Of a stretch of DNA of 47,275 bases, positions 5,580 to 14,819 are shown piece by piece. A program made the translations under genes and the position numbers. This DNA comes from Sulfobacillus sp. (GTDB lineage: Bacteria; Bacillota; Sulfobacillia; Sulfobacillales; Sulfobacillaceae), in assembly GCA_027309085.1 (NCBI GenBank), contig DAIDDL010000032.1, forward strand, positions 1 to 47,275, read 5' to 3'. How positions within the stretch are numbered: position 1 is the stretch's first letter; each line of letters begins with the position of its first letter. Below the pieces are notes generated by a model. The model worked only from the letters and a program-made list of their open reading frames with translations. It was not told the DNA's origin and ran no database searches.

Positions 5580-5707
5580 CCCACTCATGTGGCCACCGGC
5601 AGGCACACGCTTGCCGGACAGTAAAAATTAATGGGGGAAACAGGCAGGAGTATGTGGCAATCCCTGCTCCCCTCCGCTTGGTCAGAGCGAGAAAGAAGGA
5701 GATATTT

Positions 5708-6493
5708 GTGGAGAAAATACCGCAGCTTCCCATTGCGGAAATGGCATTAGACGTGTGGTACGAAGGGCCCGGCTTTGTGGTGGCCGACAAGCCGCAGGGC
5801 ATGAGTGTGCATCCCGGGAGCCCCGAGGGCAACCACACCTTGGTCAACGGCCTGTTGCAGTCCAACCGTTGGCTGGCCGAAATGGAAACCAGCCACACGC
5901 CCGGAGTGGTTCACCGATTGATGCCGGGAGACCGCGGCTTAGTCGTCGTGGCTAAGAGCGACGACATGGCCACGGCGCTGCGCGAGCTCCACCGAGACCA
6001 CGCGCTCACGTTTTCCTACCGTGTGCGCCTCCCCCAAGAGGTGGTCCCGCTGCCCACAGCACTGGTGACCGTGCGCGACCACCAAGTTTATGACCAGGTG
6101 GCTGTGTGGGATATCGACAGTCCCCTTGGCGATACAGACCTCTTGCGCGCCGAATGGCTGGGTGATGTGAGCGTTGAGGCTTACTTTGTGGCTTACCGCG
6201 TCGACATTCCCGCCCCGGATAAACGCGTTCAGGTGGGATTGGGAGACCGGTTGTGGCTCCCGGCGATTGATCTGTATACGGTGCCTCCCTGCAGCATCTG
6301 CAACGGGACGAAAGCGCTGCTATCCTCCTACGGCTTTGGCTACCGTGATCACTCGCTAGACAACGACGCCGCCATCGCGGAAATGCGCCGTCTGCGCGGC
6401 CCAGAACGGGGGATTCCGGTGATTTTGATCAACGGCGTAGTTTCTGTGGGATTTGACCGCCACCGCCTCAAGCACACACTCGGTCTCTATTAA
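5708..6493 (+). CDS. Fusion of degenerate RluA-type pseudouridine synthase region with C-terminal glutaredoxin
   Basis: GTG 5708 follows a near-perfect AAGGAGATATTT, giving 261 residues. Residues about 16-110 align by eye to the first half of RluA family enzymes: FVVADKPQGMSVHPG, TLVNGLL and TPGVVHRL. In true enzymes HRL is followed by the catalytic Asp (HRLDxxTSG); here the next residue is Met72 (HRLMPGDRGLVVVAK), and the rest of the RluA catalytic fold is absent. After a bridging segment of about 75 residues comes a full glutaredoxin-like domain (187-261): IDLYTVPPCSIC with CxxC at 195-198, then GIPVILINGVVSVGFD, which is the TVP and GFD pattern of glutaredoxin/NrdH proteins. The redox domain looks intact, so the likely role is a thiol-disulfide protein with a non-catalytic RNA-binding-derived domain. 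The RNA-binding part is inference. A terminator follows directly. Confidence 0.8.
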   Translation: MEKIPQLPIAEMALDVWYEGPGFVVADKPQGMSVHPGSPEGNHTLVNGLLQSNRWLAEMETSHTPGVVHRLMPGDRGLVVVAKSDDMATALRELHRDHALTFSYRVRLPQEVVPLPTALVTVRDHQVYDQVAVWDIDSPLGDTDLLRAEWLGDVSVEAYFVAYRVDIPAPDKRVQVGLGDRLWLPAIDLYTVPPCSICNGTKALLSSYGFGYRDHSLDNDAAIAEMRRLRGPERGIPVILINGVVSVGFDRHRLKHTLGLY

Positions 6494-6510
6494 TTAAGAC
6501 TCGTGGTCCA

Positions 6511-6549
6511 AAAGCCGGGAGCGCCCTCGTATGAGGCGCTCCCGGCTTT
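6511..6549 (+). terminator. Terminator after the RluA-glutaredoxin gene
   Basis: A perfect 15-bp stem (6511-6525 with 6535-6549) starts with AAA and ends with TTT around a 9-base loop, 18 bases after the stop codon. The symmetric A/T flanks let it work in both directions. Confidence 0.8.
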
Positions 6550-6639
6550 CCTGTCGACTTCCCGGGGTCAGTTGTCCGGCAGCCAATCGCTGTGCCGCAC
6601 CTGACCTGTTGTTGGCTAACGCTTGCAGCGATGGGGGGG

Positions 6640-7515
6640 CGCTGAACCGATGAAGTGTAGGATTCTTCTGGTTCGACATATCGCCAGCCGTAACGCGCAC
6701 AAAGGTTCTCTAATTGGTTGCGGAGTTGCCCGTGCGGAATCTGCACAAAGTTTTGATTGTTCCGCTTGCTTATGTTCAAGTCACGTTTCCAATCGGGATT
6801 GTAACCGACCACGATTGTCCCAATCTCATTAGCACGGCAGTAGTTTGCAATGTACCGCGCCGACTTCATCATGTAGTCTCGCACTTGATTGTTGCGATTT
6901 ATCGTAATACGTGCCATCCGCTCAGAACGCGGTAACTTTTGCTGATCAAGGATAGACTGCAACTTTGCCATACGCACGTTGTACTGATGGTTGATAGATT
7001 TTAGATGTTTTCCGTCGAGGATGAACGACGACCCATCGGTACTGTTTACACATGTAGCGAGATTATCCAAACCCAAATCAATGGCGAGGGCCTTGTCTTC
7101 CGACCACGTCGGTTGTGGTTCTTCCTTCACGTCATAGACGAATTGCACTTTGAAGAACCGCGCTTTCTCAATCGGCAGGATGCGAACTTCTCATCCGCAC
7201 ATCATGAAAGCGATACTCGCCTTTCTTCGCCTTCTTGAGTAGGTTAAAAAAGGAACGGAATGAGCGGTCGACTACTTTGAGAATTTGCTGGCTCACACCG
7301 GCTTGCAGTAAAACGTAATTCTCGTTATCCTTCACGGCCCTATAGGTCGACTCGTAGCGCAAATACCGTCCTTCCGCAAAGAAATACTGGCGGATCGAAT
7401 ACAAGCCAACGTTGTAGAGATTCTTCGCATACCGGCACATTTCCCGCAAGGCTTCGTATTCACTTTTGTCGAGTCCCTTGATTTGGTTACTCTGTGCCAA
7501 GTACACATTCGTCAC
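6640..7515 (-). pseudogene. tnpB: Broken TnpB (RuvC-like guide nuclease) of an IS200/IS605-type element
   Basis: The N-terminal part (start 7515) reads EMCRYAKNLYNVGLYSIRQY and SFFNLLKKAKKGEYRFHDVR, the usual TnpB wedge/REC region. About 50-60 codons of the middle are then missing, and the sequence resumes in another frame with EVRILPIEKARFFKVQF and the first RuvC motif (ALAIDLGLDNLATC, catalytic Asp present). The second motif region IGTIVVGYNPDWKRD and the RYVEPEESYTS segment follow. Beyond that the frame is scrambled: the zinc-finger cysteines and the final ADxNGAxNI motif with its catalytic Asp are not found. So there is an internal deletion with frameshift and loss of the C-terminus. The element's right end is also gone. 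Confidence 0.85.
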
Positions 7516-7884: not shown

Positions 7885-7927
7885 GGGGGGTAACAATTGC
7901 TGAGGCAGCATGAGGGGAGCGATGGGG

Positions 7928-8854
7928 ATGACTCTGCGCCAATTAGAATTCCTGATCGGGATTGCGGATCTGGGAAGCATCTCTGCTTGCGCTGAATATT
8001 TCGGGGTGACCCAGCCGGCCGTGACGAACCAGATTTTGCAGCTGGAAGAAGAATTGTCGGCCCCACTCTTGATCCGTGGCGTCCGTGGCGCCACGCTGAC
8101 AGAAAGCGGGAAGAAGGCTGTCCTCCAGGCCCGGACAGTGCTGCAGGAGGTTAAGCGGATTCCCGTGAGCATTGAAGAAGCGAGAAATGCGATTGCGGGA
8201 AAGATTATTCTGGGAGTGAGTCCACTGTCGCCCGTGTCCATTCACCATTTCCCGAGGATCTACCGGCCATTTCACAGGGCCTTTCCCGAGATCCGCATTG
8301 AAGTGCTGGAAAACGAGGCTCTCCACCTGGCCGATCAGGTGAGAAAAAGCCAAGTGGATTTAGCTCTGACGCCCCTTCCCCTGTTTACCACCAAGGTGCA
8401 GTTTGAACCGCTGTGGAGCGAGGAACTGGTGGTCATTTCCAGCCCGGACGAAAATCTCGGGGACCCCGTCCCCATGGTGTCGCTGCGCGATAGCGATTTT
8501 GTGTTTATGAAGCCGGGGTACAGCGTCAACCTGACCGTGGCCCGGTTGGCCCAGCACGCTGGCTTCGTGCCGCGCATTGTCAGCGAGGCCACGAGCATTC
8601 ATGCTCTCTTGGGATTTGTCGCCGCGGGCATCGGCATCGCGATTGTCCCGATGGACACCGTATCCTTGGAGGCCAAAGCCGGGCTGATCCATGTTGCGCG
8701 GCTTGTGCCGAAGGCCCACCGCCGTCTGGCCATGGTCTTTCGGGACCGGGAGGAGATCAGCCCCGCCGTCGAAGTCTTCATGCATTATATCCGCTGCTAT
8801 TCGGAAGAGGTCCCGCACGACCGTACCCACTTGATGGTGGACGGAAGCCGTTAA
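7928..8854 (+). CDS. LysR-family transcriptional regulator
   Basis: A 308-residue LysR-type regulator, the normal length. Residues 1-60 form the winged helix-turn-helix (MTLRQLEFLIGIADLGSISA, then EYFGVTQPAVTNQILQLEEEL). The substrate-binding domain follows, with the RIEVLENEALHLADQV and TSIHALLGFVAAGIGIAIVP segments typical of the effector pocket. The ATG at 7928 is chosen because GGGGAG at 7914-7919 is 8 bases upstream; ATGs at 7910 and 7922 are in frame but badly spaced. The downstream neighbours (a broken oxalyl-CoA decarboxylase gene and the formate dehydrogenase operon, same strand) suggest it controls oxalate or formate metabolism. The effector is not evident. Confidence 0.9.
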   Translation: MTLRQLEFLIGIADLGSISACAEYFGVTQPAVTNQILQLEEELSAPLLIRGVRGATLTESGKKAVLQARTVLQEVKRIPVSIEEARNAIAGKIILGVSPLSPVSIHHFPRIYRPFHRAFPEIRIEVLENEALHLADQVRKSQVDLALTPLPLFTTKVQFEPLWSEELVVISSPDENLGDPVPMVSLRDSDFVFMKPGYSVNLTVARLAQHAGFVPRIVSEATSIHALLGFVAAGIGIAIVPMDTVSLEAKAGLIHVARLVPKAHRRLAMVFRDREEISPAVEVFMHYIRCYSEEVPHDRTHLMVDGSR

Positions 8855-8904: not shown

Positions 8905-9595
8905 ATGGGGACCGCATTCGGGGAACTCGGTGTCACGCAGTCGCCGCTCTGGGCAGAGAACGGGTGCAGCACAGAAATTCGTTCGCGCTTTACCCAAGGG
9001 ACCAGGGAATGGGAGATGGTTCTGTGGGTCAGCGGCTCCGGGAGCATCGAAGGCCGCTGCGGCGGCAAAGTATTTGGCCGCGATGTGCATGGAGTGTACC
9101 GGCCCGGAAACGATCTGGAGGTCCGCCTGGGCGGCAGGATGTTCGGCGAGACATTGCGCCTGGCCATGCAAAGCCGTGCGCACATCTCGGGACGGATTGT
9201 CGGCATGGGAGATGCCATTGGCGCGGCCACCGTGAGCAATAAGCCTGTCGTCGCCATTGAAGGCGACAGCGCCTTCAGCGGAATGGAAATCGAAACGCTG
9301 TGCCGCTATCACCTGCCCGTCGTGATTCTGGTCTTCAACAACGGGGGGATTTATCAGGGTGACAAAGTCGGCACCGCCCCCTCCCCCACAGGATTTGTGC
9401 CGAATGCCCGCTACGACGTTCTCATTGAGGCATTTGGCGGCCGCGGCTATCACGTGGAAGATGCAGCCGGGCTCACCAACGCTCTGACCGACGCTCTCGC
9501 CGCGGCGGAGCCCGCTTTGCCTTATCGACCCGGCGGCGGGCACCGAGAGCGGACATATTCAGAGCCTCAATCCGAAGAGCGCTCTGTCGAAGTGA
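8905..9595 (+). pseudogene. Broken oxalyl-CoA decarboxylase-like ThDP enzyme (C-terminal domain)
   Basis: From about 9195 the frame gives the ThDP-binding domain of oxalyl-CoA decarboxylases: GMGDAIGAATVSNKPVVAIE, then GDSAF...NNGG (the GDG-N26-NN ThDP/Mg motif with Ser in the third place), VPNARYDVLIEAFGGRGYHV and ALTDALAAAEPAL. Near 9522 the frame is lost by one base; the true end continues in the next frame as LIDPAAGTESGHIQSLNPKS and stops at 9593-9595. Upstream of 9195 I cannot recognise the central or N-terminal domains, although an ATG at 8905 with GGGAGG is open. Intact enzymes are about 560-570 residues; this has at most 230. It converts oxalyl-CoA to formyl-CoA in the family, which fits the formate dehydrogenase nearby, but this copy should be dead. 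Confidence 0.75.
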
Positions 9596-9675
9596 AGACG
9601 GGGAGGGTGCTCGGGAACAGGGCAGCTGGCCCCCTAGTCCTCCCCCGAAATTTCTAGAAAAAAGGAGCGGCTTTT

Positions 9676-10107
9676 ATGGATTTTGATCTTGCACACTTCT
9701 CTGCCCAACTCGTACAGTCCATGCCGGATGCTGTTGTCTACGCCGATGCGGGGGGGAAGATCCGGTTCTGGAATAGCGGCGCTGAGCGAATTTTTGGCTA
9801 CGCCGAATCTGAGACTCTAGGGCAGACGCTCGATATCATCATTCCCGAAAATCTCCGCCGGCGCCACTGGGACGGGTTTGAATCCACGATGCGTTCGGGA
9901 GAAAGCCATTACGGGGCGGGGGCGCTTTTAGCGGTGCCGGCGGTCCGCAAAGACGGGGCGCGGATATCGGTAGAATTCACCATCGTGCTGTTTCGCGGGG
10001 AATCCGCACGGATGGGGGGCATCGCGGCGGTCATGCGGGACGTCACCACGCAATTTGCAGAATTGCGGGCTCTGCGCAAGCAACTCGCGGCAAGAGGGCC
10101 ATCTTAG
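9676..10107 (+). CDS. Single-domain PAS sensor protein
   Basis: A 143-residue cytosolic protein that is essentially one PAS domain plus a short helix: VQSMPDAVVYADAGGKIRFW, NSGAERIFGYAESETLGQ, RKDGARISVEFTIVLF and IAAVMRDVTTQFAELR. These are the usual PAS core, FGY and S2-box elements. There is no kinase, cyclase or DNA-binding part, so it must act through a partner. AAAAGGAG is 10 bases before the ATG. It sits 230 bases before the formate dehydrogenase catalytic gene on the same strand and may sense redox state, oxygen or a ligand for that operon; the ligand cannot be read from the sequence. Confidence 0.85.
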   Translation: MDFDLAHFSAQLVQSMPDAVVYADAGGKIRFWNSGAERIFGYAESETLGQTLDIIIPENLRRRHWDGFESTMRSGESHYGAGALLAVPAVRKDGARISVEFTIVLFRGESARMGGIAAVMRDVTTQFAELRALRKQLAARGPS

Positions 10108-10337: not shown

Positions 10338-12263
10338 ATGGCCACTGTCATCCGCAAATCCGAACGCACCAGGCTTAGCACGCCTTTAGTGCGCAAGAAC
10401 GGGCAATTGCGGCCAGCCACATGGGAGGAAGCTCTTCAGCGCGCCGCGGAACTTTTTGCTGGCGTCAAGACTCAGTACGGGCCGAATGGGCTGGGAGTTT
10501 TCAGCTGTTCCAAGTCCACCAACGAGCTCAATTACCTGGCATCAAAATTTTCCCGAGTCGTCTTTGGCACGCACAACATCGATTCATGCAACCGGACGTG
10601 ACACGCTCCTTCGGTCGTGGGTCTCACGACTGCGTTTGGAAGCGGTGCCGGCACAAGTTCTTATGAAGATTTTCACCATACGTCCTTCATTCTCCTAGTG
10701 GGGTCGAATGCGGCGGAAGCCCACCCCATTATTTTCCACCACATTATGAAAGGGGTGCACAACGGAGCGGAGCTGGTCGTGGTGGACCCTCGCAAGACGC
10801 TGACCACCAAGCGGGCCCACGAACATGTGCAGGTTACGGTCGGGTCGGATATCGCGCTGGTGAATGCGATGGCCCATGTCATCATCCGTGATCACCTGTA
10901 CCGTGAGGACTTTGTCAAACGGGCTACTGTAGGGTTTGACCAGTTTGCGGCTAGCGTTGCCGGGTGGACCCCTGAGCGCGCGGCAGCCATCACCGGAATT
11001 TCCGCCGAGCGCATCGAATCCTTGGCGCGCCGCTACGGCCAGGCGCCTTCGGCCATGATCGGCTGGACGCTCGGAATCACCGAGCACCACAATGCCGTCG
11101 ACAATGTGTTCTCCCTGATTAACCTGGCGCTGCTGTGCGGCAACGTGGGGCGGCCAAACGCCGGACTCAACCCCCTGCGCGGGCAGAACAACGTCCAGGG
11201 CGGAGGCGATATGGGGGCACTGCCCAACCGGCTGCCAGGCTTTCAAGACGTGCTCGACCCGGCAGTTCGGCAGAAGTTTGAACAGGCGTGGGGCGTGCCG
11301 CTGGCTGACAAACCCGGGTGGAACCAGACGGAAATGTTTGAGGCAATCGACCACGACAAGATGCGTGGACTCTATGTGATTGGCGAAAATCCTATTCAGT
11401 CGGAAGCTGACAGTGACTACATGCGCCGCCTGTTCAGCAAGCTCGATGCCCTGGTGGTGCAGGATATCTTTTTGACAGCCACTGGAGAAATGGCCGATGT
11501 GGTCTTTCCCGCCCGGGTGTCCTTTGCCGAAAGTGAAGGAACTTACACCAACAGCGAGCGGCGCGTGCAGCGTGTCAAACCCGCGCGCAAGGCTCCGGGG
11601 GACGCGCAGGACGACTTGTGGATTGTGGCGTCTTTAGCGCGGGCGATGGGATATCCCTGGCCAGTGCAAGGAGCCCAAGAGGTCTTTGACGAAATGCGCC
11701 ACCTGACCACCAATTTTCTGGGGATGACCTATGAGCGCCTAGAACAGGAGAACGGCCTGCAGTGGCCGGTGCCGGAGATGGGCCACCCTGGCAGCAAAGT
11801 GCTCCACGAACGGCTGTGGGCGCCGGAAGTGATGGACAAAGCGGCCTTTACCCCCGTGGAGTGGTCGCCGCCGGTGGAACTGCCCACTCCCGACTACCCG
11901 TTTTTGCTGACGACAGGCCGGAGACTGGCGTTCTTCAATACAGGAGTGCAGTCGAATGTCTATGACCACCCCCATAAAATTGGCGAGTGGATGGAAATCC
12001 GGGCTGAGGATGCCAAGGCGCTCGGTATGGAAGATGGGGAAGTGATTGCCGTGATTTCCCGGCGCGGGCGGGTGGAGGTTCCGGCCTACTATTCGGACGC
12101 GGTCATGTCCGGCACGGTGTTTATGACTTTCCACTTTCCCGACGAGGTGATGACCAACAGCCTGACGATTGACGCGACCGACCCGAGGTCGGGCACGGCG
12201 GAATTCAAGGCCGCCGCTGTCCGCTTGGAGCGCCTGCAAGATTCGCGGGCAGAAGGCCTGTAA
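10338..12263 (+). CDS. fdhA: Formate dehydrogenase catalytic (molybdopterin) subunit, selenoprotein
   Basis: Reading the in-frame TGA at 10599-10601 as selenocysteine gives one 641-residue protein; without read-through there are two pieces (10338-10601 and 10602-12263). The context NIDSCNRT-U-HAPSVVGL is the family's active-site loop, where U88 (or Cys) and the following His bind Mo/W and formate. Further motifs: FILLVGSNAAEAHPI, VVVDPRKTLTTKRA, RPNAGLNPLRGQNNVQGGGD, GLYVIGENPIQSEAD and the MopB C-terminal domain (TGRRLAFFNTGVQS...). The N-terminal [4Fe-4S] domain that normally precedes TPLVRKNG is missing here and is carried by the product of the 13971 gene. GGAGGG lies upstream of ATG 10338. 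It oxidises formate to CO2 and should pass electrons to the NuoE/F/G-like partners. Confidence 0.9.
10599..10632 (+). promoter_or_regulatory. SECIS element for selenocysteine insertion
   Basis: Ten bases after the UGA codon an 8-bp stem (10612-10619 with 10625-10632, one G-U pair) closes the loop GGUCU. Bacterial SECIS hairpins, exemplified by E. coli fdhF, have an apical GGUCU-type loop at the same distance and are bound by SelB. UGA followed by CACG and this loop is very close to the E. coli arrangement. All of it also codes for the conserved HAPSVVGLTTAF stretch. Confidence 0.85.
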
Positions 12264-12292
12264 GGGGCCAGAAACAGAAAAGAGGGTGACGG

Positions 12293-12742
12293 GTGGACAC
12301 TCAAGATTTAGCCATCAATACGGAGGTCGCGGCGCTGCTTCAGGGAATGCCGCGGGACCGGTCTCAGCTTTTGCCGGCGCTGTGGCGGGTGGTGGACCGG
12401 TATCAGGAGCTCACCCCGGGGGTCATTGACGCCGTGTCCCAGAGTCTGAACATTCCTTACGCGGAGGTTTATGGGGTCGCGTCGTTTTACACGCTGTTCG
12501 ACAATGCGCCAGGAAAGGTGCCGGTGCATATCTGCACCGATGTGATGTGTGCCCTGCAAGGAGCCGGGAGCCTGCAAGAGGCCGCAGAGGACGCCGCTTT
12601 AGGACGTCCGGTGGCGGTGCGCGAATCCGCCTGCCTGGGGCAGTGTGACCATGCTCCGGCGGCGTGGATTGGATCGCAGGTTATGCGCCGCGCGACGCCA
12701 GAGGCGGTCCGGGCTGCGGTGAAGGCGGTGGGTCATGAATGA
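12293..12742 (+). CDS. NuoE-like [2Fe-2S] subunit of formate dehydrogenase
   Basis: A 149-residue thioredoxin-fold ferredoxin of the NuoE/HoxE family. N-terminal helices (LLPALWRVVDRYQELTPGVI, then LNIPYAEVYGVASFYTLF) precede the cluster ligands: CTDVMC (C-x4-C) and CLGQC (C-x3-C), the standard NuoE spacing. It bridges electrons to or from the flavin subunit. GTG 12293 follows GAGGGTG; the catalytic gene ends 29 bases upstream, and the next gene starts inside this one with an 8-base overlap, so the three are co-translated. Together with the next gene it indicates an NAD(P)-linked, soluble enzyme. Confidence 0.9.
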   Translation: MDTQDLAINTEVAALLQGMPRDRSQLLPALWRVVDRYQELTPGVIDAVSQSLNIPYAEVYGVASFYTLFDNAPGKVPVHICTDVMCALQGAGSLQEAAEDAALGRPVAVRESACLGQCDHAPAAWIGSQVMRRATPEAVRAAVKAVGHE

Positions 12743-13952
12743 AGTGCGCCGGCTTCTTCCGGACCTGCGATCCGCCTCAGGACCTGCATCCCCTGAGCGG
12801 CTGGCAGAGCGCGGATTCGACCAGGCCCTGACGAAAGCGTGGGCGATGAGCTCCCAGGCCATTATCGACGAGGTGACGGCAAGCGGGATCAAAGGCCGGG
12901 GCGGGGCGGCATTCCCGACCGGGCTGAAGTGGTCGAGTGTGAATAAAGCCGAGGGGCAGACCAAGTACGTGGTGATGAACGCGGATGAAAGCGAACTGGG
13001 TACGTTCAAAGACCGGGTGCTGCTCGAAGAAGACCCTCTGGGCGCCCTCGTGGGGCTGCTGATTGCGGCCCATGCGGTCGGGGCGCGCAAGGCTTTTTGC
13101 TATATCCGCGGGGAATACCGGGAAGTGGAGCAGATGCTGGCGAAAGCCATCGACACCCTAACGCAGCTGGGTTGGGCGGGGCCGGGCCGCATCGATGTGG
13201 AGATTCGCCGGGGAGCGGGAGCTTATATCGCCGGAGAGGAAACAGCCCTGTTCAACAGTATTGAGGGCAAACGTCCCGAGCCGCGGGTGAAGCCCCCTTT
13301 TCCCACCAACAAAGGGCTGTGGGGGTCTCCGACACTTATTCAGAATGTCGAGACGCTGGCCAATGTGGCCATCTTATTCGCCCATGATGCCCAGTGGTTT
13401 GCGGAGTATGGCACGAAAGCCACTGCGGGGACCAAACTGGTCGCGTTAAGCGGCCACATCCAGCGTCCCGGCGTGTACGAAGTGCCGTTTGGAATGGCGC
13501 TGGCAGACATTTTGAACGCGCCGGATTTAGGGGGCGGGGTGGCAGGAAGCGGACGGCTGCGCGCTGTCCTGTTAGGCGGGGCAGCCGGGACCTTTCTGTC
13601 TCCCGACGAAGTTGCTCAGAGCCAGCTGGATTACGCGTCTTTGGGCGCTTTCGGCGCCAGCATCGGGTCGGGGGCGGTTATGGTCTTCGATGATACGGTG
13701 GATTTGCAGTGGGTTTTGACCAAGCTCGCCCGCTTCTTTGCCGATGAATCCTGCGGCCAGTGCGTGCCCTGCCGCATCGGCACGCAGAGGATTTGGGAGA
13801 TCGCTGAAAAAGGCGGCTTGTGGACCAGAACCGAGGACTTGCGGGAACTGGGCCAGGCTATGCGCGATGCGTCCATCTGTGGTCTGGGCCAGACAGCGCC
13901 CCTGGCGCTTTTGTCGATTTTGGACCGGCCTGGGCTGAGGCAGGACGTTTAA
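12735..13952 (+). CDS. NuoF-like FMN/NAD(H)-binding subunit of formate dehydrogenase
   Basis: A 405-residue NuoF/HoxF-type diaphorase subunit. Motifs in order: SGIKGRGGAAFPTGLKW (FMN), NADESELGTFKDR (NAD/FMN), RRGAGAYIAGEETALFNSIEG, PPFPTNKGLWGSPTLIQNVE, an SLBB segment, then the [4Fe-4S] ligands ESCGQCVPCRIGTQR with a later Cys in ASICGLGQTAP. It lacks the extra N-terminal ferredoxin domain seen in some clostridial NADH subunits. It reduces NAD(P)+ with electrons from formate. The start overlaps the NuoE-like gene by 8 bases; the next gene begins 18 bases after the stop. Confidence 0.92.
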   Translation: MNEVRRLLPDLRSASGPASPERLAERGFDQALTKAWAMSSQAIIDEVTASGIKGRGGAAFPTGLKWSSVNKAEGQTKYVVMNADESELGTFKDRVLLEEDPLGALVGLLIAAHAVGARKAFCYIRGEYREVEQMLAKAIDTLTQLGWAGPGRIDVEIRRGAGAYIAGEETALFNSIEGKRPEPRVKPPFPTNKGLWGSPTLIQNVETLANVAILFAHDAQWFAEYGTKATAGTKLVALSGHIQRPGVYEVPFGMALADILNAPDLGGGVAGSGRLRAVLLGGAAGTFLSPDEVAQSQLDYASLGAFGASIGSGAVMVFDDTVDLQWVLTKLARFFADESCGQCVPCRIGTQRIWEIAEKGGLWTRTEDLRELGQAMRDASICGLGQTAPLALLSILDRPGLRQDV

Positions 13953-13970
13953 TCCAGAAAGGGGAACGAA

Positions 13971-14819
13971 TTGACAATGGGGAATTCCGTAACCCTGCAG
14001 ATAGACGGCCAGCCGGTTACTGTGGCTCAGGGCACCACCTTGCGCGCCGCCTGTGATGAGGCGAACCACGCCGTGCCCACCTTGTGCTGGCACGAGAATC
14101 TGACTCCCGCCAATGCCTGCCGGGCCTGCGTGGTAGAAGTCAAGGGATCGCGCACTCTCGTCGCGTCATGCTCCCGGGTGGCAGAAGACGGCATGGAGGT
14201 GCAGACTGCCAGTGAGCGCGTGCTGAATGCCCGGAAGGTAGTCGCCGAACTTTTGCTGTCCACCTCGGATGCCTCGCTGGCGCCGGACCTACTCAGTCTG
14301 GCGGATACGTCGGGCGCCAATCCAGACCGCTTTGGCGGCGGCGCGACGTGGCAGCAGCCTGTGCGTGAGGACAACAATCTCTACATCCGTGATTTATCCA
14401 AATGCATCTTATGCTACCGCTGTGTGGAAGCCTGCGGGGATGACGCGCAGAACACCTTTGCCATCGCCGTAGCCGGCCGCGGATTTGGGGCGCATATTGA
14501 TGCCGGATTCGGGCGCGACCTGCCTGAATCGGATTGTGTGTATTGCGGCAACTGTGTGGCCGTGTGTCCCACGGGAGCACTGATCGGGAAGACCGAATGG
14601 GATTTGCGGAGCCAGGGACAGTGGGATGAGAGCAAAATCACCCAGACTGAAACGGTCTGTTCTTACTGCGGGGTGGGATGTGAATTGGACCTGCACGTGA
14701 TGGACAACCGGATCGTCAAAGTGACATCCCCGGCAGATCATCCGGTCACCCATGGAATGCTGTGCGTGAAGGGCCGTTATGGCTACGAATTTGCGCAGAG
14801 TGAAGAGAGAACCGATTAG
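13971..14819 (+). CDS. NuoG/ferredoxin-like subunit carrying the formate dehydrogenase N-terminal [4Fe-4S] domain
   Basis: A 282-residue, three-part iron-sulfur protein. Residues 7-75: [2Fe-2S] plant-type domain with C39, C50, C53 and C67. Residues 140-205: two [4Fe-4S] motifs, KCILCYRCVEAC (C145, 148, 151, 155) and CVYCGNCVAVCP (C189, 192, 195, 199). Residues 228-275: VCSYCGVGCELDL...GMLCVKGRYGYEF (C230, 233, 237, 265), which is the cofactor-proximal [4Fe-4S] domain that in other formate dehydrogenases begins the catalytic subunit. It ends at SEERTD, just where the catalytic gene begins (KSERTRLSTPLV). The His-Cys3 cluster motif usual in NuoG between the first two parts is absent. Start TTG 13971 is 6 bases from AAAGGGG; ATG 13977 is the alternative. 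Confidence 0.88.
   Translation: MTMGNSVTLQIDGQPVTVAQGTTLRAACDEANHAVPTLCWHENLTPANACRACVVEVKGSRTLVASCSRVAEDGMEVQTASERVLNARKVVAELLLSTSDASLAPDLLSLADTSGANPDRFGGGATWQQPVREDNNLYIRDLSKCILCYRCVEACGDDAQNTFAIAVAGRGFGAHIDAGFGRDLPESDCVYCGNCVAVCPTGALIGKTEWDLRSQGQWDESKITQTETVCSYCGVGCELDLHVMDNRIVKVTSPADHPVTHGMLCVKGRYGYEFAQSEERTD

Follow-up and report, generated by a model that had tools for sequence, protein, structure and literature searches.

The window, a 47,275-nucleotide stretch of a Sulfobacillus genome, was found to encode a formate dehydrogenase whose catalytic subunit begins at its Mo-pterin domain, the proximal [4Fe-4S] domain being located instead at the C-terminus of a ferredoxin-like subunit encoded last in the operon (Table 1). 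The operon very probably specifies an NAD-linked, selenocysteine-containing enzyme in which the first electron step would cross a subunit interface; we infer its assembly, electron path, direction, and use of NAD as the acceptor. The host genome (4.49 Mb, 99% complete) is distributed over 172 contigs, with the operon on contig 98, and Sulfobacillus thermotolerans, S. benefaciens, and S. harzensis are among its named relatives. From the catalytic ORF, which starts at ATG 10338 with the Shine-Dalgarno sequence GAGAAGGAGG, the plus-strand gene order was shown to be CAT-NuoE-NuoF-ferredoxin, and the NuoE and NuoF genes thus lie between the two halves, as given in a preliminary description of this DNA. 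That description was right on the split itself, and did not include the selenoprotein, the loss of a His-ligated cluster, the oxalate context, or the widespread family of single origin presented below.

Table 1. Features of the split formate dehydrogenase operon and its upstream region (window coordinates)
Feature	Coordinates	Strand	Basis
Formate dehydrogenase catalytic chain (641 aa) with its N-terminus at the Mo-pterin domain; active-site Sec88-His89 and Arg281	10338..12263	+	Pfam, TIGR01591, structure matches
NuoE/FdsG-like [2Fe-2S] thioredoxin-fold subunit	12293..12742	+	PF01257
NuoF/FdsB-like NAD-/FMN-binding subunit with one [4Fe-4S]	12735..13952	+	Profile matches
Ferredoxin-like subunit, 280 aa: Fer2_4, 2x[4Fe-4S], then Molybdop_Fe4S4	13977..14819	+	Pfam
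Displaced proximal-cluster domain (CSYCGVGC...CVKGR)	14643..14798	+	Pfam; alignment of 24 homologues
In-frame TGA = selenocysteine, context SCNRTUHAPSV	10599..10601	+	Reading frame; relatives' codons
SECIS-like hairpin, GGUCU apical loop, just 3' of UGA	10604..10644	+	RNA folding
PAS-domain protein, upstream neighbour kept in Sulfobacillus-like genomes	9676..10107	+	Neighbourhood comparison
Remnant ORF with C-terminal part of oxalyl-CoA decarboxylase	8905..9657	+	Neighbourhood comparison
LysR-type regulator adjoining oxalate/formate genes	7910..8854	+	Neighbourhood comparison

Pfam analysis of the catalytic chain detected the Molybdopterin (residues 12-435) and Molydop_binding (522-626) domains and no Molybdop_Fe4S4 domain, and the chain matched TIGR01591 at 667.7 bits, over the cut-off. 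The last ORF of the operon was shown to contain Fer2_4 (4-80), Fer4 domains, and Molybdop_Fe4S4 (224-275). Upon alignment with FdsA from Rhodobacter capsulatus (PDB 6tg9_A, 958 aa), the small subunit covered residues 22-308 and the catalytic subunit residues 307-931, and thus the two halves tile one fused protein. The domain content and this tiling bore out the earlier claim that the catalytic gene starts just after the proximal-cluster domain. In all 15 fused rows in which the motif was found, exactly 10 residues separated CxKG[x] from the RL of the pterin domain, and sequence comparison confirmed that the split falls in this 10-residue linker between the proximal [4Fe-4S] and pterin domains, a conserved position. 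The similar chain ends (SEERTD and KSERTR) that had been noted alongside it were absent from relatives; an overlap left as a trace of duplication was thereby ruled out, and the resemblance is probably due to chance. The proximal domain indeed forms the C-terminus of the ferredoxin-like subunit, the start of which is most likely ATG 13977 (280 aa) and not, as first assumed, TTG 13971 (282 aa).

An additional Molybdop_Fe4S4 domain serving the catalytic subunit, which the preliminary description had named as evidence against its reading, was sought with PF04879, and no other free-standing domain of this type was found in the whole genome. The remaining matches were large fused proteins, except for one weak partial match; this odd partial match, C117, was attributed to a different molybdoenzyme with a disrupted frame near a contig end. 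AlphaFold models were predicted for single chains. Modelled by itself (pLDDT 84), the catalytic chain matched FDH-H and FdsA with a query TM-score of about 0.9, and the FDH-H and HDCR FdhF catalytic domains among the structure matches were 38-44% identical to the chain. For the small chain, the prediction was confident in the C-terminal domain (residues ~221-270) and poor in the middle [4Fe-4S] region.

The identity of the displaced domain was assessed from its conserved residues. In an alignment of 24 diverse homologues, C229, C232, C236, C264, and K266 of the small subunit were all invariant, as were C/U88, H89, and R281 of the catalytic subunit in the alignment of its relatives. K266 is the counterpart of E. 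coli FDH-H Lys44, an essential residue for which only the Lys-to-Arg substitution retained some activity (7.1%) and two other substitutions lost more than 90% of the cluster (PMC12176258). Meanwhile, the small subunit might be regarded as a truncated NuoG carrying an N7-type remnant, in which case the catalytic subunit would work without a proximal cluster; NuoG ranked high for this subunit in the NCBIfam search, complex I subunits ranked high in the fold search, and a 2014 Sulfobacillus genome paper terms the neighbours NuoEFG-like (PMC4378227). However, the proximal domains of the split and fused formate dehydrogenases all read CGxGC...C[VI]KG, whereas the NuoG rows read C(P/S)VGC...CDRG (8/8), and in the tree of the N-terminal halves NuoG formed its own clade (100/100) far from the split group. 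With neither the N7-type signature nor the NuoG placement found in the small subunit, and with the four cysteines and the formate dehydrogenase lysine invariant, a NuoG origin was ruled out by signature and tree, and this reading as a whole is very improbable. By its invariant Cys and Lys residues, the Lys44 equivalence, and the differing NuoG signature, the displaced domain is, at the sequence level, a formate dehydrogenase proximal domain.

It is also conceivable that the displaced domain is only structural and that the catalytic subunit hands its electrons to another partner, since some enzymes of the DMSOR superfamily lack the N-terminal [4Fe-4S] (PMC10100899). Such enzymes are, however, mainly oxide reductases with other pathways, every cluster ligand is kept in the present domain, and linkage of the two genes holds in nearly all genomes; the distances of the two genes also correlate (r 0.91), as operon partners generally do. 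We therefore consider this possibility to be slight, and favour a functional cluster domain acting in trans.

A further explanation to be weighed is that a fused gene, or one with a broken frame, looks divided through an artefact of sequencing, assembly, or annotation, as might be suspected from the 172 contigs and the TGA within the frame. Against this, contig 138 of the host genome was found to carry a second copy with the same gene order, two intact genes lie between the halves, and the order recurred in complete chromosomes, including the single-contig CP019454.1, and in many independent assemblies. Because of the second copy and the independent complete genomes, the artefact that the preliminary description had itself named as a possible refutation was excluded, its probability being practically negligible. 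In 61 genomes of relatives, some assembled in one or two contigs, most of the close ones encoded the catalytic subunit in a frame of its own, ~640-750 aa long and containing a single TGA.

The search for the same arrangement elsewhere, proposed in the preliminary description, revealed a widespread family. When the fetched loci were made non-redundant at 90% identity, 66 catalytic subunits remained, of which 60 displayed the order CAT-NuoE-NuoF-Fer+PROX, five were cut by contig ends, and one (L057) was incomplete. In this last locus (G005:C46), the split catalytic gene was followed by NuoE pieces only, neither NuoF nor a ferredoxin subunit being encoded within 8 kb, and the same genome contained a second, complete copy. 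The split relatives were named as records of Bacillota, Gemmatimonadota, Planctomycetota, and Actinomycetota, with single MAGs of Rhodospirillales and Deltaproteobacteria, names that are to be treated with care. In the class of the window, the separate small subunit was detected above 429 bits in 45 of 154 genomes, the next match being at 358 bits (L158) and the rest at 273 bits or lower. Three genomes (G099, G100, and G101) each carried both split and fused TGA-containing formate dehydrogenase-like frames.

In a tree of 86 catalytic domains, the 66 split rows all fell on one side of a single branch (SH-aLRT 100), with the clade lying amid enzymes of the fused and FdhF types; L073, the fused relative closest to it, likewise bears a TGA. 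In the tree of N-terminal halves, the split subunits grouped with L158 (98/99). Since the split catalytic subunits constitute one fully supported clade among fused enzymes, the fission is judged from these trees to have happened once. The order C-E-F-N had been described as a circular permutation of the usual one; this holds with respect to the E-F-A order of L115, L123, L126, and L158, but not to L073, in which the order is A-F-E. C-E-F-N may have arisen from an E-F-A operon through tandem duplication with deletion, or else through fission followed by translocation.

For the catalytic frame to stay open, TGA 10599-10601 must be read through as residue 88, the position of the Mo/W ligand. Of 58 non-redundant split relatives examined at this codon, 57 had TGA and one had TGC (Cys), and tRNA-Sec, SelA, and SelB were all present in the genome over their cut-offs; the conserved in-frame UGA was thus accompanied by the complete set sought for a selenoprotein. 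A hairpin with a GGUCU loop was predicted in three loci, with z values of -1.2 (window), 0.4 (L037, not significant), and -2.5 (L077), so that folding as a SECIS is weakly supported by energy. The GGUCU loop after the UGA resembles that of the known element of E. coli fdhF. In the copy from a Pseudonocardiales MAG (L128), Cys (TGC) replaces Sec, and a relative of formyl-CoA transferase (55% identity) is encoded upstream.

As for the remaining clusters, the domain order of the usual FdhA in the preliminary description left out the His-ligated [4Fe-4S] of FdsA. Besides one [2Fe-2S], FdsA from R. capsulatus binds four [4Fe-4S] clusters, of which one, A4, has a His ligand; A4 lies at the interface of the dimer and outside the route taken by the electrons (PMC7171172). 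The A4 motif HxxxCxxCxxxxxC was absent in 74 of the 75 rows classed as separate subunits and present in five fused rows, and its counterpart was also absent from the translation of L158. The absence of A4 suggests an oligomeric state different from that of FdsA.

On the basis of these observations, we propose that an FdsA-type polypeptide was cut between its proximal [4Fe-4S] and Mo/W-pterin domains, the N-terminal half becoming a separate ferredoxin-like subunit. On reassembly of the two chains, the ferredoxin subunit would bring its conserved lysine and proximal cluster up to the pterin bound by the catalytic chain. Formate-derived electrons would then leave Mo/W for the proximal cluster by crossing between the two subunits, and continue over two [4Fe-4S] clusters and the [2Fe-2S] cluster to FMN in the NuoF subunit and on to NAD+. 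Mechanistically, the best-supported view is that of an FdsABG-like enzyme in which the ferredoxin subunit would supply the proximal cluster and its lysine in trans. It is rather unlikely, though less so than the alternatives above, that the split is of functional rather than neutral character, the catalytic subunit, devoid of a cluster, being a module that can detach and whose regulated or oxygen-sensitive docking on the proximal-cluster subunit gates the first electron transfer of formate oxidation.

In Sulfobacillus-like genomes, frc (for formyl-CoA transferase), oxc (for oxalyl-CoA decarboxylase), and the gene of a small PAS protein precede the fdh genes, and a LysR regulator is located near them; the stand-alone PAS protein sits between oxc and fdh. 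Based on this frc-oxc-PAS-fdh neighbourhood, oxalate-derived formate is likely the substrate, and NADH the product, in these bacteria, in which formate would be formed mainly from oxalate via frc and oxc. In the window, frc and most of oxc have been lost, while the contig-138 copy and those of relatives are intact, and hence the window copy may serve another formate source. The remnant ORF of Table 1 is chimeric, the start of a small unrelated protein being joined to the C-terminal oxc piece. An IS605 OrfB-type transposase (6468-7148) adjoins the damaged oxalate genes, the small ORF at 7168-7515 gave no Pfam match, and the ORF at 5654-6493 combines pseudouridine synthase-like and glutaredoxin-like domains, an unusual pairing. 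In seven loci of other phyla, FdhD, which is needed for formate dehydrogenase maturation, was encoded directly downstream.

Published accounts place the proximal [4Fe-4S] on the pterin-binding subunit in all formate dehydrogenases, and our literature search, which covered open papers outside subscription and preprint sources, found no description of a split one. Among known systems, FdsABG(D) from R. capsulatus (PDB 6tg9; PMC7171172) shares the MopB core with U/C-His-Arg and the NuoE and NuoF partners, and its FdsA carries the [2Fe-2S], two [4Fe-4S], and the proximal cluster in the same order as the combined split protein. The present enzyme differs from FdsA in its two polypeptides, so that the proximal [4Fe-4S] and pterin domains are not on one chain, as well as in its C-E-F-N order, its lack of the His-ligated A4, and its selenocysteine. 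E. coli FDH-H and HDCR FdhF share the Lys44 equivalent, and FDH-H also has Sec, but both carry the proximal cluster and the lysine on the catalytic chain. Formylmethanofuran dehydrogenase (FwdB/FwdD) is another MopB enzyme divided into two subunits; there, the cut lies at the C-terminal dinucleotide-binding domain and the [4Fe-4S] remains on the catalytic chain. A replaced C-terminus has been described for the Methanothermobacter enzyme (PMC7171172). The nearest relative of the split family in its diaphorase and A4-free ferredoxin is L158 (G134:C1:328000-346000), located on a complete chromosome of the same class, in which NuoE, NuoF, and a ferredoxin of the split-family type precede a separately encoded catalytic chain of the Cys type with the proximal domain still attached; the break thus falls before that domain, giving the order E-F-Fer-[PROX-CAT]. 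The putative Sec formate dehydrogenase with NuoEFG-like neighbours reported in 2014 from all Sulfobacillus genomes corresponds to the same loci, and the accessible part of that paper makes no remark on the proximal domain of the NuoG-like subunit (PMC4378227). Compared with these systems, a whole clade departs from the one-polypeptide rule while keeping every ligand, and represents a natural domain-splitting experiment: a ready two-component system for the role of covalent linkage in the ~6 A cluster-pterin contact, a source of separable modules for the engineering of CO2 reduction, and an example of how a fused redox subunit could be divided in a single event, along with a rearrangement of its operon, before spreading to several phyla.
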